Assembly (NCBI GenBank): GCA_019454145.1
Contig: CP075366.1
Span: forward strand, 2,645,564 to 2,709,563
Origin: Fimbriimonadaceae bacterium
GTDB taxonomy: Bacteria > Armatimonadota > Fimbriimonadia > Fimbriimonadales > Fimbriimonadaceae
Length of the DNA stretch: 64,000 bases
Direction of reading: 5' to 3'
Shown: in pieces, positions 37,627 to 50,555 of the stretch
Layout: each line of letters opens with the position of its first letter
How positions within the stretch are numbered: position 1 is the stretch's first letter
Translations under genes and position numbers: made by a program
Notes under the pieces: generated by a model
The model's database searches: none
What the model saw: the letters and a program-made list of their open reading frames with translations, nothing else
What the model was told of the DNA's origin: nothing

Positions 37627-38841
37627 CTACCGATCAATCTCGCCGAGCACGATGTCAATAGAACCGATAATCGCAATGACATCGGCAATCAAGCGACCAA
37701 CTGCCAAGACCTCAAGTGACTTCAGATTCATGAAGCTTGAAGGGCGTTCGTGCCAGCGGTAAGGTCGGTTGGAACCATCGCCAATAACATAAAAACCGAG
37801 TTCACCTTTAGAACCCTCAATCCCCGCGTAAGCTTCGCCAGCGGGAGCGCGGAATCCTTCCGTATACAGTTTGAAGTGGTGGATCACCGATTCCATACTG
37901 CTATCTAATTCGTGGCGTGGTGGCGGAGCGACTTTTCGGTCGAGCGTATTGTACGGCCCTTCGGGCAATCCATCAATACATTGCTGAAGAATCTTGCAGG
38001 ATTCCTTCATTTCGGCAATCCGAACCAAGAATCGATCGTACACATCGCCGACATGACCGATGGGGATATCAAAATCAAAATCTTCGTAACTGCTGTACGG
38101 TTTTGCTTTGCGGAGATCAAATGCAACGCCGGATGCTCGAGCGATTGGGCCGGAGCAACCAAGCGCAAGTGCTTCGGCACCGGTGAGGATTCCAACGTCT
38201 TGCGTGCGCTCTTTCCAAATCGGATTTTCGACTAGGAGGTTCTCACAAACCTGAAGTTCCTTAGGGAATTCTAGTAGGAACTTGCGGAGTTTGACTTCTA
38301 AACCAGCGGGAATATCCCCACGCAGACCACCCGGAACAATCCAAGACGGCATCATACGAACACCTGAGAACATCTCGAACATATCGAGAATCATTTCTCG
38401 CTGTTGCATGATGTAGAAAAATGGAGTCATCGCACCGAGATCAAGTGCATGAGTTCCCAACCAGACGCAGTGGCTGGCGATTCGGGAAAGTTCGGCGAGC
38501 ATGACTCGCAAGTATTGACCTCGCTTCGGAACTTCACAACCGATCAGCTTTTCAACTGCCAAGGCATGAGCGAGGTTGTTTCCGTTTGCGTTAAGGTAAT
38601 CCATGCGGTCGGTCATGACCACACATTTATGATAAGTCTGGTATTCGGCTTCTTTTTCCATCCCTGTGTGGAGATAGCCGATCACGCATTTGGCGCGAAC
38701 AATGGTTTCGCCTTCTAGTTCGCAAATCACCCGAAGCACGCCGTGAGTAGAGGGGTGTTGCGGACCCATGTTCACGATCATCGTGTTCTCGCCAGTTTTT
38801 TCGAACACGGTTTCGGTGCTTGGAATGAAGGTCTGACTCAT
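37627..38841 (-). CDS. nuoD: NADH-quinone oxidoreductase subunit D
   Basis: 404 residues. NuoD is the 49 kDa-type subunit lining the quinone pocket of complex I. The start block NMGPQHPSTHGVLRV with the quinone-binding histidine, the HTGMEK and YLNANGNNLAHALAVEKL segments, and the C-terminal GEIDR ending are all present. A TAAACT lies 8 nt before the ATG, so it can be transcribed separately from nuoC, from which two prepilin units separate it. Confidence 0.97.
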   Translation of the reverse strand: MSQTFIPSTETVFEKTGENTMIVNMGPQHPSTHGVLRVICELEGETIVRAKCVIGYLHTGMEKEAEYQTYHKCVVMTDRMDYLNANGNNLAHALAVEKLIGCEVPKRGQYLRVMLAELSRIASHCVWLGTHALDLGAMTPFFYIMQQREMILDMFEMFSGVRMMPSWIVPGGLRGDIPAGLEVKLRKFLLEFPKELQVCENLLVENPIWKERTQDVGILTGAEALALGCSGPIARASGVAFDLRKAKPYSSYEDFDFDIPIGHVGDVYDRFLVRIAEMKESCKILQQCIDGLPEGPYNTLDRKVAPPPRHELDSSMESVIHHFKLYTEGFRAPAGEAYAGIEGSKGELGFYVIGDGSNRPYRWHERPSSFMNLKSLEVLAVGRLIADVIAIIGSIDIVLGEIDR

Positions 38842-39191: not shown

Positions 39192-40163
39192 TTAGTCTTG
39201 TCGGTCAGGTCGGAAGAAGCAGACGTAGCGATATCCACCAGTTGTGTTGGTGGTGGTCAAGTTACCGCAGTCTCCATCGTTGGTTGCCCAGTAGGAGAAT
39301 CCGCTGCCCATTGGACCATAAGCACTGGTGTTAGCAAATGCGTATGCGTCGTTTCGAGCTTCGTTGTTTTGGTTAGGAGCTTGTGCAGCACCTGCGCGTT
39401 GGAACTTAGCAGAGCTGTCAACTCGGGTGTAGATAACACCGCCGCCACCGTTCACGCCACCGAATGTCCAGAGGCGATAACCACCGGAGAAGTTACCGTA
39501 ACCAAAGAACAGACCGTAGTTTGCAGCACCGCTGTCGGTACCTGGTGCTCCACCTGGGTTGAATCGGCAGTTACCAACAAATGTGGTTCCGCAGTTCATG
39601 GATGGGTTTGCACTTGCACGACCGTTGAACTTGAGGTTACCGGTACCGGACCAGAACAATGGGGTAGCAGAAACTGCAGTGACTGCGGTTCCGCTGTAGG
39701 TGTTCAATTGACCGTTCATGGTAACGCCCATTTGCCAAGGTTTTGGAGCGCCAGTGTTGGTGCTGAAGACTTCACCTGGGATGGTGGTCAAGTTTTGGTT
39801 AGGCGATTGCATGATTTGGCTGTTCTTCATGTATGGATACATGGACATGTGCCACATCGCGTTCACTTCACCAATGATTTGTGCGGAGTCCCAACCGGAA
39901 CCGATAGATCCTGATGGTGCTGGGTGGATGGTGCTGAAGCGGTGAGTACCGTCAGCCCGCACTGACCAAGCAGCCATGAGGTTGTCATCGTAGTCAGCCA
40001 TGTAGATGTTGGCTGAGGTACCCATTTGCTTAATGTTGCTCAATGCTTGGGTCTTCTTAGCTGCTTCTTTTGCTTGTGCAAAAACAGGGAAGAGGATGGC
40101 AGCAAGGATTGCGATGATCGCGATAACGACCAGCAGTTCAATCAGCGTAAATGCTTTTTTCAT
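39192..40163 (-). CDS. H-type prepilin-like protein, unit 5
   Basis: 323 residues, the longest copy: [42 protein letters not shown], cysteine pair in MNCGTTFVGNCRFNPGG, RVDSSAKFQRAG and a C-terminal FFRPD. It shares [18 protein letters not shown] and CRFNPG with prepilin 6, its upstream neighbour, so these two seem a recent pair. Codon use is notably regular (CGTA, GGT), perhaps reflecting high expression. Confidence 0.92.
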   Translation of the reverse strand: MKKAFTLIELLVVIAIIAILAAILFPVFAQAKEAAKKTQALSNIKQMGTSANIYMADYDDNLMAAWSVRADGTHRFSTIHPAPSGSIGSGWDSAQIIGEVNAMWHMSMYPYMKNSQIMQSPNQNLTTIPGEVFSTNTGAPKPWQMGVTMNGQLNTYSGTAVTAVSATPLFWSGTGNLKFNGRASANPSMNCGTTFVGNCRFNPGGAPGTDSGAANYGLFFGYGNFSGGYRLWTFGGVNGGGGVIYTRVDSSAKFQRAGAAQAPNQNNEARNDAYAFANTSAYGPMGSGFSYWATNDGDCGNLTTTNTTGGYRYVCFFRPDRQD

Positions 40164-40179
40164 TGTATTAGTGCTCCGA

Positions 40180-40199
40180 GTTCCTGCAAATACAGGAAC
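40180..40199. repeat. GTTCCTG-N6-CAGGAAC inverted repeat, unit 5
   Basis: A perfect 7 bp inverted repeat ending 17 nt before the prepilin 5 ATG. It resembles the GTTnCC/GGGAAC repeats of the other units. Confidence 0.5.
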
Positions 40200-40257
40200 A
40201 AGATAGTCATAGGCACAACGAACCAGGCTAATGGCCTTAATACCTACGTCATTACTT

Positions 40258-40286
40258 TGTACCTCAAGTTGCGTGCCTTTGTTCCC
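40258..40286 (-). promoter_or_regulatory. weak ECF-like promoter match, unit 5
   Basis: On the minus strand GGGAACAA, 15 nt, then GGTACA. The -10 part matches units 3 and 6 only if shifted by 1 nt. Confidence 0.25.
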
Positions 40287-40529
40287 ACATTTTTATTTTT
40301 TTTAAGGAACTGCAAAAATACTCATAAAAATAGGATTAATTTACGAGAAACAAATCTAAGGTGCCGGAATCCTAGGGAATCCTCTCGTTCAATACTGTTC
40401 CCAAGAATGCATAAAATAATGGAACTCACCTTTATTTTATAGTTGAATTGTGCCAGACGCCAAAATAAGTAGAAAGTGGGCCGAAGGGCCTATGCCTGTC
40501 TTGTGCGGAGATGGGGAATGAGTTTTAAC

Positions 40530-40567
40530 AAAAAACGGAGCCGGCTTGTTTGACCAAACCGGCTCCG
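40530..40567 (-). terminator. terminator of unit 6
   Basis: CGGAGCCGG and CCGGCTCCG form a perfect 9 bp stem followed on the minus strand by six T residues, about 26 nt after the lipoprotein stop. Confidence 0.92.
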
Positions 40568-40592
40568 AGAAGTGGATAGAAATGAAGTTCAG

Positions 40593-40804
40593 CTACTTTC
40601 CAGAATTACCGCTATCACCTACGGATGAAGGAACTGAACTATTGTTGAGACTGCTTTCGGGTACAGCAGTCATTCCGCTGGTGTTTTCCGTTGACGTAGG
40701 ATTCGCGCCTGGAGTTTCTGCATCAGGTTGAGCACATCCAGTCACCAATACCAAAACGGCGAGAGCCACGATGCCAGTAATTAGCTGGAAGAATCCTCTC
40801 ACCA

Positions 40805-40808
<4 letters not shown>
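40593..40808 (-). CDS. small lipoprotein, unit 6
   Basis: 71 residues from the ATG at 40808, which overlaps the prepilin stop (ATGA). Signal peptide with lipobox LVTGC; the mature tail is rich in Ser, Thr, Asn, Pro and Gly. The longest of the six partners. Confidence 0.84.
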
Positions 40809-41706
<898 letters not shown>

Positions 41707-41710
<4 letters not shown>

Positions 41711-41912: not shown

Positions 41913-42506
41913 TTATCGTCCAGAGATTTCTTCTGAGCCAGTTACGCCTTCAAACGATTCGCCAGCATGGGGCATCTGAATATCTTCGACCGCTGGCCCT
42001 TCAGTTCCAGCGTGGAACACAACATCTTCGCCGCCGAGGGGAACTTCTTTGCGCAAGGGGAATCCGATCCAGTCGTCGGGCAAAAGGAATCGTTCGCCGG
42101 GTTCTGCCTCGTTGCCTTCAAATACAACTCCATAAAGGTCTTGGATTTCGCGTTCGGGATATTCGGCGCCAAGAAATATGTCTTTCAGAGTTGGAATGGA
42201 TTCACCGTCATTCACTGCCACTTTGACGAACAAGCGTTCGTTGATGTGAGTGCTGAACAGGTTGTAAACAACCTCGAACCGGCCTTCTAAATCTCGGGCA
42301 TGTTGCCAAGTGGAATAATCAACCCCGACGCATTCGACAAAATAATCGTATTTTGTGTTGGGATCACTCTTTAGCGCTTCGACAATGGCGGGCAGATCGC
42401 TGGGTGCGACACATACATAAGTGTCACCGCGGTTTTCAAACTGCTTGATAATCTTCTTCGAGAATTTTTTATCGAGCAGGGCAAGATCAGCACGTACTGT
42501 GGTCAT
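41913..42506 (-). CDS. nuoC: NADH-quinone oxidoreductase subunit C
   Basis: 197 residues. NuoC (30 kDa type) joins the peripheral arm of complex I. The signature block YPEREIQDLYGVVFEGNEAEPGERFLLPDDWIGFPLRKE is clear. The ATG overlaps the nuoA stop by 1 nt (TAATG), with no nuoB between. It is not fused to NuoD. Confidence 0.96.
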   Translation of the reverse strand: MTTVRADLALLDKKFSKKIIKQFENRGDTYVCVAPSDLPAIVEALKSDPNTKYDYFVECVGVDYSTWQHARDLEGRFEVVYNLFSTHINERLFVKVAVNDGESIPTLKDIFLGAEYPEREIQDLYGVVFEGNEAEPGERFLLPDDWIGFPLRKEVPLGGEDVVFHAGTEGPAVEDIQMPHAGESFEGVTGSEEISGR

Positions 42507-42970
42507 TACGAAGTCGCCTCCTTATTGAACACCGCGTCACCAATCGGCTCAGAAATTGTGAGATTGGAATCCTGGAGTTTTTCTGGCGCGAGGGATACTG
42601 CTTCGTCCCAATCAAGCGCGCCGACTTTGATGATGTAGAGATAACCGATGATCCATATCACCAAGAACACGAGAATATCGACTCCCGTGAAGATTTGAAA
42701 TGCCGTAGATCCGTGTTTGAAGACAGTAAACCAACTCCAAAGGAAGACAACTTCAATATCAAAAAGTACAAAAATAATTGCGACCAGATAGAATTTGATC
42801 GGAATTCGTTCTAGTGCTTGGCCCAATGGTTCGACGCCGCATTCGTAAGCGGATGATTTGTAGCTTGTGATTCGTTTTGGGCCAAGAATGTAGCTGCCCA
42901 AAACCATGACCGTGCAGACCACGGCGGCAAGGCCCATCATCATCAGGATGGGAATGTATTCGCCGAACAT
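42506..42970 (-). CDS. nuoA: NADH-quinone oxidoreductase subunit A
   Basis: 154 residues with three predicted membrane helices. The loop YECGVEPLGQA between helices 1 and 2 is the NuoA signature, near the quinone channel. It also has the ILFDIEVVFLWSW helix. It heads the minus-strand nuo series; a TAACAT lies 7 nt before the ATG. The C-terminal ~35-residue tail is longer than usual. Confidence 0.95.
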   Translation of the reverse strand: MFGEYIPILMMMGLAAVVCTVMVLGSYILGPKRITSYKSSAYECGVEPLGQALERIPIKFYLVAIIFVLFDIEVVFLWSWFTVFKHGSTAFQIFTGVDILVFLVIWIIGYLYIIKVGALDWDEAVSLAPEKLQDSNLTISEPIGDAVFNKEATS

Positions 42971-47304: not shown

Positions 47305-48669
47305 ATGAAACTCAAACGCGCTCCGATGTTCGCAGTAATGGCCTTGTGCTTAGTAGTGCAAGGAGCCATTGCCCGAATCAATTATCCAGTTTGGGAGAAA
47401 AACTATTCTCCCAGAATTGGAAGTGACCTTCGTGGACTGAGCGGCGACCAATTGCTGATTGCATTGGCAGGATTCCGTGAGATGGTTGCGGGAATTCTGT
47501 GGGTTCGTGCTGACACCTATTTTGATGAAGGGAACTATGACGCGATCTTGCCAGTTATTCGATTGGTTACGATGCTTGATCCTAAGCAGATCGATGTCTA
47601 TGCCACTGGTATGTGGCACATTGCCTACAACTTTACGGACGAGCAAAATCGTTCTGACCGCCGTTATATTCCCAGTGCGCTCGCGCTCGGAGAAGAAGGC
47701 GCGCGAAACAATAGCTACACGTACGAATTGTTCTTCGAAACCGGTTGGCTTTGGTATCACAAAATCGATGACGATTACGATAATGCGGTTAAGTGGTGGG
47801 AACAAGCAAACGAAGTAAAAGATATGCAGGCCGCGAGAAAGAACATTCTCGCTATGGCACTCTTGCGCGACGGCAAGCTAATGGAAGCAGCCGAGCACTA
47901 TCAATCTTTGCTGGACAAAGCAGAAGTTGAGTTCAATAAAAACCCAACTGAGTATCAAAATCGGCAGAATCGCGACACCATTGAGTCCAACCTAGATAAC
48001 ACGCTTGTTCGTATGGCTCAACGAGGAAACTTTGCCTTGCTGGGCGGTTACTACGATGAGTGGAACTACGACACTAAGCCTCCTTACGACGTTGGGTTCA
48101 GTGCTCAAGTGGTTGTAGAAGACAGTCGCGTTTTGCGGGTTGAAGGCACTTGGAACGTTCAACCGGTTGGTACTCGCGTGCGCATCACCCTACGTGACGC
48201 AGACAACCCGAATGGCGTACCAGCAGGGATGAAATGGGATCGAAGCGATACAGTTGACCTGGATCCTGAAAAAGACGTCACCTTCATGCAAGATGCGCTC
48301 TTCGTCAAGAACCAGTCGTTCTACCGACGTATAGACATGTCCCGTGATCCCGTAATGTATCCGTTTACAACGGATAAGTATTACGTCGAGTTTTATTACA
48401 ATCCTCGCTCGGGCCCGCCTCACATCCAAGACCGATTTGGCTTCAATGGCGAAGGAATGACCGATTCAAACTTCTTGAATACAGAAATCCGAAATGGTCA
48501 GCGCGTCGTCTATTGCCGACTTGAGCTCACTCGCGATCAGCTGTTGCGAACCGGGGAATGGTCAACCAAAACCCCAGTTGTGAAAACCAAGAACTTTGTA
48601 CCAACTGGTGCTCGCACGGCTGACGACATCATTGATGTCCCTGGCATGCGCAGCGATACCGGTAACTAA
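47305..48669 (+). CDS. membrane-anchored TPR-like protein, partner of the ABC exporter
   Basis: 454 residues with one N-terminal hydrophobic segment (about residues 8-24). Residues ~70-220 form helical repeats resembling TPRs (YDAILPVIRLVTMLDP, and DGKLMEAAEHYQSLLDKA later). The C-terminal half is beta-rich and unassigned. It forms an operon with the ATPase and permease, so it may be an extracytoplasmic component of that system. I do not recognise a named family. Confidence 0.75.
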   Translation: MKLKRAPMFAVMALCLVVQGAIARINYPVWEKNYSPRIGSDLRGLSGDQLLIALAGFREMVAGILWVRADTYFDEGNYDAILPVIRLVTMLDPKQIDVYATGMWHIAYNFTDEQNRSDRRYIPSALALGEEGARNNSYTYELFFETGWLWYHKIDDDYDNAVKWWEQANEVKDMQAARKNILAMALLRDGKLMEAAEHYQSLLDKAEVEFNKNPTEYQNRQNRDTIESNLDNTLVRMAQRGNFALLGGYYDEWNYDTKPPYDVGFSAQVVVEDSRVLRVEGTWNVQPVGTRVRITLRDADNPNGVPAGMKWDRSDTVDLDPEKDVTFMQDALFVKNQSFYRRIDMSRDPVMYPFTTDKYYVEFYYNPRSGPPHIQDRFGFNGEGMTDSNFLNTEIRNGQRVVYCRLELTRDQLLRTGEWSTKTPVVKTKNFVPTGARTADDIIDVPGMRSDTGN

Positions 48670-48672
48670 TCA

Positions 48673-48807
48673 GTCAAGCGCTTGGCGGCAGTTCTAAGGA
48701 ACTGCCGCCGGGAACTGCGCGGCAGGAATTTGGTGAACCCCGTCAGGGCCGGAAGGCAGCAGCGGTAAATCAGAGGACTGGGCGATGCAGCCCTCCCGGC
48801 GCTTGAC
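48673..48807 (+). ncRNA. ffs: signal recognition particle RNA (small bacterial type) with an extra hairpin
   Basis: The conserved SRP tip GTCAGGGCCGGAAGGCAGCAGC lies at 48742-48763. The ends GTCAAGCGC and GCGCTTGAC pair perfectly, and GGGAACTGC pairs with GCAGCCCTCCC inside. Between these two helices on the 5' side is a perfect 10 bp hairpin, GGCGGCAGTT-CTAAGG-AACTGCCGCC (48684-48709), absent from E. coli 4.5S RNA. The RNA binds Ffh in co-translational targeting. A short T-rich run follows. It lies just before dnaX, as in many Firmicutes. Confidence 0.92.
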
Positions 48808-48878
48808 TCTATTTTTAGAAATGAAGCCCAAATTCCTCCCGTTTTGGGCTGGATTCAGATAAAGTTGATGAGACCGAA

Positions 48879-50555
48879 GTGAGTTATCTAGCCCTGTTCC
48901 GAAAGTATCGAAGCCAGTCGTTTGAAGATTTGGTTGGGCAGGATCACGTCGTTCGCACCCTTAAGAATTCCATCACTCAGGGCAAAATCGCACAGGCATA
49001 TTTGTTTACCGGCCCACGGGGCACAGGTAAGACATCAACTGCACGTCTTTTAGCCAAAGCTGTGAACTGCACTGGCGGGCCAAGCGGTGAAATCCCCGCA
49101 GATTGTCCGATTTGTGCTGAAATTACTTCTGGAAGTTGCATGGATGTAATCGAACTAGATGCCGCCAGTGAATCCGGCGTACAGCAAGTTCGCGATCATA
49201 TTGTCGAAGCAAGTGAATATCAGCCAGCGCAGTGCCGATACAAGGTTTTTATCATTGACGAGGTTCACGATCTCAGCCGCCAAGCTTTTGATGCGTTACT
49301 CAAAACCATTGAAGAACCGCCGCCTCACGTTATTTTTATTCTTGCGACTACCGAGTTTCATAAGGTTCCGCCTACCATTCGGAGTCGCTGCCAGAAGTTT
49401 GAATTCCACCGTGGTTCAATGCAAAACCTGGTTTCCCGCTTGAACTACGTGATTGAGCAAGAAAACTTGAATGCTGAACCAGCGGCAGTCACGGCTATCG
49501 CTCGGCTGAGTGATGGAGGCTATCGAGATGCGCTGACCTTGCTTGAGCAAGCGATAGTTACGGCCGATGGCAAACTCACGCTGGAGCATGTTTACGATCA
49601 ACTTGGCTTGTTAAATGACGAGGTCACAGATTCACTGATCCTGGCGATGGTGGAGGGAAACCTCGAAGCGATTATCGGTGGGCTTGAAGAAATCTATCAG
49701 CGAGGTCGCGATCCGCAGTCCATTCTGGAATCTTTGATGTACCGCCTAGCTGACTTAACACGAGCGCTATTGCAAGCGGGCAGCAATGGCAATGATGCGG
49801 CGATGGAAGCCGGATTGACGGCAAAAGCGAGCCGCATTGGCGCTGAGAAACTGCTGAAAATTAGGTCTGAAATCTCCATTCGGCATAAGTCAGTGCGTGA
49901 AGTAAGCATTCCAAGAATTTGGCTAGAGGCCGAATGTTTGAAGGTGGCCTTGCTTTTGCAAGAGTCCGCGCCGATCCCTGCGCCAGTTCAGCGACCAGTG
50001 ATGAAGGAGGCAAAGCCAGTAGAACGAGTCACTTCATCCCCAAGCGCAGTTGCAGAAGTGCGAGAACCAGTAGCGCAGAAAGAAGCGGAACCCTCGCCCT
50101 CCGTTGAGACTGAATCCAATCAAGAGCCATTTGAGGTCGAAGAAGTTAAAACGGAAGAGCCGCAAACTCAAACGGCTACTGCTGGCCCGGAAGATGAAGT
50201 TTGGCAACGGGTGAGCGCAGAAATGTGCGCGAAATCACCCACAGCGGCTATCCACTTGCCCGGAAGTGTTGCCACCGGAAAAGACAGCGGAGTGGTCACA
50301 GTAGAGTTTGAGAAAGCGGTTCACTCAGATTGGGTGACTGGAAAAACTGCGCTGGTAAAGGCGTTGCGGGAATCGTGGCAAGCGATTACTGGCGAAGAAG
50401 TGATGTTTAAGTTCATTTCTAACGGCAAAGTGACCCGCCGCACACCGAAAATGGAGAAGGCTTCGGTAGAATCTCCACTAGAAGGTGATCGCCTAGCCGA
50501 TGCGGCAAAACGCATTTTTGGCACGGCAAATGAAGCACCAAATGATGTCTCATGA
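48879..50555 (+). CDS. dnaX: DNA polymerase III gamma/tau subunit
   Basis: 558 residues. Walker A GPRGTGKT at 45-52, zinc cysteines at about 64, 76, 79 and 87, Walker B VFIIDEVHD, and the SRC arginine motif at TIRSRCQKF. After domain III come a Pro/Glu/Val-rich linker (about 365-440) and a short C-terminal domain. It loads the sliding clamp. GTG start. It overlaps ybaB by 4 nt in the dnaX-ybaB-recR order known from many bacteria. No programmed frameshift slippery A-run was noticed. Confidence 0.96.
   Translation: MSYLALFRKYRSQSFEDLVGQDHVVRTLKNSITQGKIAQAYLFTGPRGTGKTSTARLLAKAVNCTGGPSGEIPADCPICAEITSGSCMDVIELDAASESGVQQVRDHIVEASEYQPAQCRYKVFIIDEVHDLSRQAFDALLKTIEEPPPHVIFILATTEFHKVPPTIRSRCQKFEFHRGSMQNLVSRLNYVIEQENLNAEPAAVTAIARLSDGGYRDALTLLEQAIVTADGKLTLEHVYDQLGLLNDEVTDSLILAMVEGNLEAIIGGLEEIYQRGRDPQSILESLMYRLADLTRALLQAGSNGNDAAMEAGLTAKASRIGAEKLLKIRSEISIRHKSVREVSIPRIWLEAECLKVALLLQESAPIPAPVQRPVMKEAKPVERVTSSPSAVAEVREPVAQKEAEPSPSVETESNQEPFEVEEVKTEEPQTQTATAGPEDEVWQRVSAEMCAKSPTAAIHLPGSVATGKDSGVVTVEFEKAVHSDWVTGKTALVKALRESWQAITGEEVMFKFISNGKVTRRTPKMEKASVESPLEGDRLADAAKRIFGTANEAPNDVS

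Follow-up and report, generated by a model that had tools for sequence, protein, structure and literature searches.

A covarying leader/trailer structure around the rod of the small SRP RNA in Fimbriimonadales

The small SRP RNA gene of Fimbriimonadales often carries a covarying leader/trailer structure, with which the rod forms a three-way junction. In this work, we describe this structure in a window of 64,000 nucleotides (the whole stretch of DNA analyzed, from a genome that its DnaX relatives assign to the Fimbriimonadaceae, Armatimonadota, and whose closest DnaX among the matches listed is 95% identical) and follow it through the order. With moderate confidence, we read it from the sequences as a leader/trailer module of a co-transcribed SRP RNA, standing at the place formerly held by the Alu branch, which would guard the folding of the rod and its release.

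Layout and predicted fold of the locus

The small SRP RNA gene sits between an ORF of 454 aa, which ends at 48669, and dnaX, which starts at 48879. The features are the following:

47305-48669, + strand: upstream ORF, 454 aa, without a Pfam family at E 0.001
48672-48682, + strand: 5' strand of the terminal helix (leader), from fold and covariation
48683, + strand: junction linker; 48682-48683 are two pyrimidines able to pair with the GG of the rod
48684-48709, + strand: hairpin with an 11-bp stem (48684-48694/48699-48709) and a 4-nt loop, from sequence, fold, covariation and shuffles
48710-48797, + strand: SRP RNA rod, 88 nt, with the apical domain at its top, from the RF00169 match at 48706-48804
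48798-48808, + strand: 3' strand of the terminal helix (trailer), from fold and covariation
48812-48816, + strand: run of five T 3' of the terminal helix, a possible termination signal, from sequence
48879-50555, + strand: dnaX with a GTG start, then ybaB and recR (Pfam: DnaX, YbaB, RecR)

A preliminary description of this DNA had placed a perfect hairpin at 48684-48709, on the 5' side between a terminal helix and the rod, and both sequence and fold agree with it: an 11-nt arm and a 4-nt loop are followed by the perfect complement of the arm, and the GGG of the rod abuts at 48710. The terminal helix announced there also exists, with a small correction to its limits: its 11 bp join 48672-48682 to 48798-48808, and its first base lies 2 nt past the stop codon of the upstream ORF. 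What remains is a small SRP RNA, again as described: RF00169 (Bacteria_small_SRP) matches along its whole model (1-97) with 61.8 bits over 48706-48804, against a gathering threshold of 40, and the apical domain is the one that we take to bind Ffh. The build is likewise unlike that of the large Bacillus-type RNA, as had been noted, for RF01854 matches only in part (model 112-208; 45.3 bits against a gathering threshold of 60) and the Alu domain is absent. Membership in the large family was rejected on these grounds, namely that there is no full-length match with the Alu helices and that the score falls below gathering.

The predicted fold of 48670-48810 consists of the terminal helix, the hairpin and the rod (MFE -73.2 kcal/mol, z -4.65), and none of 200 shuffles reached the native value. 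Over 48660-48830, the three-way junction has an MFE of -74.7, compared with -64.9 for a forced linear rod and -70.6 for an alternative in which the hairpin grows into the GG of the rod. Pair probabilities in this stretch are 0.986 at the base of the hairpin and 0.998 at its top; in the terminal helix they amount to 0.997 and 0.995 for the two inner pairs and to 0.508 for the outermost one. Dinucleotide shuffles of the leader of this locus gave an equally good hairpin in 0 of 60 cases. A terminator scan over 48300-49000 found none, and a generic promoter scan over the same stretch found no sigma-70-like site; as such a scan can miss the sites of this group, the locus may still have a promoter of its own. 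A gene for RNase III is present in the genome. Elsewhere in the window, two paralogous pilin-like ORFs with a shared N-terminal start lie at 39192-41710 on the - strand; they stand between ORFs, also on the - strand, that we take to resemble nuoD (37627-38841) and nuoC/nuoA (41913-42970).

Hairpin and terminal helix among relatives

From 95 loci of the order, 15 belonging to families f2-f4 were dropped, together with G078, G096 and G104, in which the motif was not found, and G071, leaving a parsed set of 76 small SRP loci in two families, f1 (that of the window) and f5. Genomes of f1 and f5 outside this set are G029 and G054, which had no match, and G061, G066, G081, G083, G084, G089, G090, G095, G100, G103 and G107, which had no RF01854 match. 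The preliminary description had offered a lineage-specific three-way junction as one of two possibilities, beside a minimal extra domain, and had named the lack of such a hairpin in relatives as a reason to give the idea up. A hairpin of -13 kcal/mol or lower that ends at the rod is present in 42 of the 76 loci, including all 8 of the genus of the window, and absent from 34; fold and covariation speak for the junction as well. The hairpin abuts the rod without a spare base in 40 of the 42 (0-2 bases were allowed) and is one base short in G025 and G105. Its mean energy is -18.9, against -8.9 in shuffled leaders, and 64 of 2520 shuffles of the 42 leaders were as low as native. Furthermore, the arms measure exactly 11/11 nt in 39 of the 42 loci, an arrangement found in 6 of 534 equally strong shuffled hairpins, and the loops vary from 3 to 10 nt. 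Even the near relatives G000 and G004 have very unlike loops and a closing pair altered on both sides, and a loop-specific contact is thus unlikely. With its length nearly fixed at 11 bp and its sequence and loop free to vary, the stem offers a clear example of selection acting on the length of a helix.

Covariation in the extra stem, suggested earlier as a check, was found in the form of matching two-sided changes. Three nested sets of loci were used, and all the following values lean toward structure because folding served to select the arms and the loci share ancestry: (i) in 41 loci (without G025), the hairpin is 96.7% paired (shuffled mean 71.2, maximum 76.1), (ii) in 37 loci (also without G016, G027, G044 and G046), the terminal helix is 89.4% paired (shuffled mean 62.4, maximum 68.6), and (iii) in 31 distinct rows (further without G006, G077, G079, G093, G098 and G105), in which pairs were counted on joined arms, the 22 pairs of both helices show 93.1% standard pairs against a shuffled mean of 66.7%, two-sided changes at 18 of the 22 pairs against a shuffled mean of 14.1, with 1 of 500 shuffles as high, and a covariation score of 0.759 against 0.226 when shuffled and at most 0.209 with slid partners. 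A mispairing control, in which every wrong pairing of the terminal helix was re-optimized, is free of the bias from arm selection. Where the hairpin reaches -12 or lower (47 loci), the native terminal helix had -24.4 kcal/mol and the mispaired one -14.0; it beat all mispairings in 28 of them, ranked among the best 5% in 34 and fell outside the best 5% in 13. In the 29 loci without a hairpin, the values were -12.9 and -12.3 kcal/mol, as measured on a fixed stretch 23-55 nt 5' of the rod, where the insert-less extended rods of G009, G012 and G087 are invisible. The gap between native and mispaired energies appears in hairpin loci and not in the others, which indicates that hairpin and terminal helix mostly occur together. 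Besides, in 39 of 41 loci the hairpin is immediately preceded by two pyrimidines (background frequency of pyrimidines 0.42), and as they are complementary to the opening GG of the rod, the junction can slide. Taken together, these comparisons across loci show a conserved RNA structure around the rod in many small SRP RNA genes of the order.

Promoter-like box, upstream gene and competing readings

A -10-like box occurs near the rod in 43 of the 76 loci, in one of two forms. TGNTANNMT is found in 24 of the 34 loci without the hairpin, and in 19 of those 24 it ends 8-10 nt 5' of the rod; TGCTANNMT is found in 19 of the 42 hairpin loci, where it ends 12-15 nt 5' of the rod, within the upper stem and loop of the hairpin. 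All 8 loci of the genus of the window lack the box. It reads as a candidate -10 element of a bare-rod RNA. As judged by eye, a TANNNT element lies 5' of many of 30 listed tRNA genes, and a strict search for TGNTANNNT 5' of these genes gave 3 of 30 (0.02 expected per gene). Two expectations follow from the distribution of the box. In the loci whose hairpin encloses the box, at least part of the SRP RNA should start past the 5' arm, which approaches the other condition (a 5' end mapped past the hairpin) under which the preliminary description would have given its idea up; in the genus of the window, which has no recognizable box, the SRP RNA should start upstream and run through the structure, either as precursor or as product. 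Box spacing does not explain the arm length, because arms of 11/11 nt hold in 18 of 19 loci with the box and in 21 of 23 without it.

The upstream gene was sought within the available flanks, often 500 nt. A relative of this gene ends 36-86 nt 5' of the rod in 41 of the 42 hairpin loci, and it is nearby in these 41 of 42 as compared with 19 of the 34 others (Fisher p 7e-6). G025, counted among the 42 by its hairpin energy, has neither a nearby upstream gene nor a significant terminal helix. On the DnaX tree, in which many forks are weakly supported (26 of 73 starred), the link between hairpin and upstream gene comes to 6 supported independent pairs and is not significant (median p 0.5), with the opposite direction hardly ever seen; the counts cover 72 rows, with G036, G099, G102 and G106 outside the tree and G071 and the large-RNA rows uncounted. 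The hairpin is on every first branch of f1 and in two genera of f5, and at least 15 changes are required, so the hairpin is probably old in the group, to judge from the present distribution, and was repeatedly lost or gained. The gene for the 454-aa protein, which has no Pfam family, is the immediate 5' neighbor of the SRP RNA gene in many of the order's genomes, and it also adjoins the large SRP RNA of G038 (L015). The tie of hairpin and terminal helix to the adjacent upstream gene suggests a leader/trailer element, part of a precursor, no less than it suggests a domain.

In the mechanism that we propose, the three-way junction would be the precursor form of an SRP RNA co-transcribed with the upstream gene. 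Many members could start the RNA at the -10 box just 5' of the rod; in other members this box would have become enclosed in the hairpin, and the genus of the window would have lost it, its RNA coming from further upstream. By folding first, the hairpin would shield the rod against invasion by the leader, the terminal helix would join leader and trailer, and an RNase III-type endonuclease could cut the rod out of the operon mRNA. The terminal helix of certain species may, in addition, end transcription or cover the ribosome site of dnaX. In B. subtilis, RNase III reportedly cuts the scRNA precursor on either side (Oguro 1998). Several points count against this mechanism: a processing signal has no obvious need of a hairpin of exactly 11 bp, the link to the upstream gene loses its significance on the tree, the native terminal helix falls outside the best pairings in 13 of the 47 loci, the upstream gene is nearby in 19 loci that lack the 11-bp hairpin, and the locus may have its own promoter.

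Alternatively, and with somewhat lower probability, the mature SRP RNA might keep the three-way junction. A one-turn hairpin would then have taken the place of the Alu branch and serve, at the rod's foot, for spacing or docking. Such a retained junction would account well for a stem of constant length with free sequence and loop, for the direct abutment of hairpin and rod in 40 of the 42 loci, for the energetic advantage of the junction and for its persistence in the genus without the box; in addition, its topology equals that of RF01854 in the alignment (terminal helix, branch, rod), and sister families possess the large RNA. However, the loop is unconserved, unlike a contact loop, the alignment to RF01854 at model 112-208 only means that the lower helix 5 is gone, 19 of the 42 hairpins hold the -10-like box, and 34 of the 76 loci dispense with the hairpin altogether. 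Since a box within the hairpin of 19 relatives implies RNAs without the hairpin, and since the loops are free, we consider a precursor somewhat likelier than a retained domain. It is tempting to speculate, with still more reserve, that a promoter was turned into an RNA domain: once the Alu branch had gone, the promoter-bearing stretch would have been taken up into the transcript and closed into a one-turn hairpin. The genus of the window would have lost the promoter but kept the hairpin, now a functional branch of its mature SRP RNA, and this would add a third architecture to the small rod and the Alu-bearing form.

A control of dnaX is improbable as the main function. The terminal helix would here hide the ribosome site of dnaX in read-through transcripts, or end transcription, and transcripts from the rod-proximal box would leave the site free. 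Among the 28 hairpin loci in which dnaX follows at no more than 45 nt, 12 do have a Shine-Dalgarno-like word inside the trailer strand of the terminal helix, and 13 of the 42 hairpin loci, as compared with 4 of the 34 others, have a run of at least five U no further than 40 nt past the rod. Neither feature is general, though, and with counts of only 13 of 42 and 12 of 28 we rejected the idea that termination or dnaX control is the general function; in the window, dnaX starts 81 nt past the rod, beyond the terminal helix, and the hairpin would be left unexplained. We regard it as very unlikely that the inverted repeat is a palindrome acting in DNA, as an operator or cruciform around the SRP promoter, instead of an RNA structure. 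The position of the -10-like box in the upper part of the repeat in 19 of the 42 loci would fit such an element, but the arms vary among species with matching changes and tolerate G-U pairs, the terminal helix beyond the rod covaries too, and the arms are 11/11 in 21 of the 23 loci that have no box. Chance, or a mobile repeat palindrome, can practically be dismissed given the covariation, the scarcity of equally low energies among the shuffled leaders and the fact that, with up to 3 mismatches allowed, the palindrome has a single place in the genome of 2.76 Mb, on which ground an origin from a repeat element was rejected as well.

SRP RNAs of the order and phylum, and comparison with known forms

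Two forms of bacterial SRP RNA are usually distinguished, one a plain rod and the other bearing an Alu domain. The RF01854 cut-off is exceeded in 19 of 113 genomes of the order, all in families f2-f4. G047 (L012, family f2) has equal RF01854 and RF00169 scores; its RNA resembles an extended rod and shows no evident Alu domain, perhaps an independent loss of Alu. In a sample of the phylum, 60 of 70 loci were scanned with Rfam, of which 45 were large, 14 small and one (L205) below both cut-offs. When the 15 non-large phylum loci were folded and inspected by eye, none had a strong hairpin immediately at the foot of the rod inside a terminal helix. Families f11, f12, f21 and f26 have extended rods and f17 has shorter ones, and the leader hairpin of L213 lies further upstream. 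Within f17, L211, L212, L213 and L215 have short small SRP RNAs (RF00169 44.6 to 56 bits), two of them followed by strong terminator-like hairpins, and L214 has a large RNA; as this family mixes large and small RNAs, the loss of Alu seems to recur inside a family. Two genome bins gave two SRP RNA matches each, G201 (C198, C268) and G190 (C138, C324; the second partial), reflecting a duplicate gene, an assembly duplication or contamination.

Altogether, the order appears as a lineage in transition, with the Alu form in sister families and both plain rods and the three-way-junction form side by side. It permits a direct test of what stays useful after the loss of Alu, and of the way in which an essential RNA is excised from between protein genes. 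In the parts of the open-licence literature that our search covered, neither a branched small SRP RNA nor the structure of an Armatimonadota SRP RNA was described.

With the small SRP RNA of RF00169, the RNA of the window shares the 88-nt rod and the apical domain. RF00169 is a single rod, in contrast, and the locus adds below it a terminal helix that covaries and a hairpin of one turn; a strict E. coli-type 4.5S RNA, one unbranched rod, is thus not what is encoded here, as a three-way junction surrounds the rod. Fold and covariation, set against the consensus structure of RF01854, give the same helix order as in the large SRP RNA (terminal helix, 5'-side branch, rod), with the hairpin of the window where the Alu branch is, a likeness in topology alone. 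The large form, known here from families f2-f4 and from most of the phylum loci scanned, has the Alu helices 2-4 and the lower helix 5, as we presume these to be numbered, and the RNA of the window lacks both. Another comparison is with the extended-rod small SRP RNAs of other Armatimonadota (f11, f12, f21 and f26) and of G009, G012 and G087, which are also without Alu and whose rod is, in folds judged by eye, prolonged by a terminal helix; unlike that of the window, they have no hairpin inserted at the foot of the rod. Finally, the leader is complementary to the trailer, as in a precursor of the B. subtilis scRNA type, and the likeness to that precursor extends to a leader and a trailer and, as proposed here by analogy, to a putative cleavage in double-stranded RNA. 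It differs from the B. subtilis case in that the RNA lies between the 454-aa ORF and dnaX and carries, in addition, a hairpin of near-fixed length.
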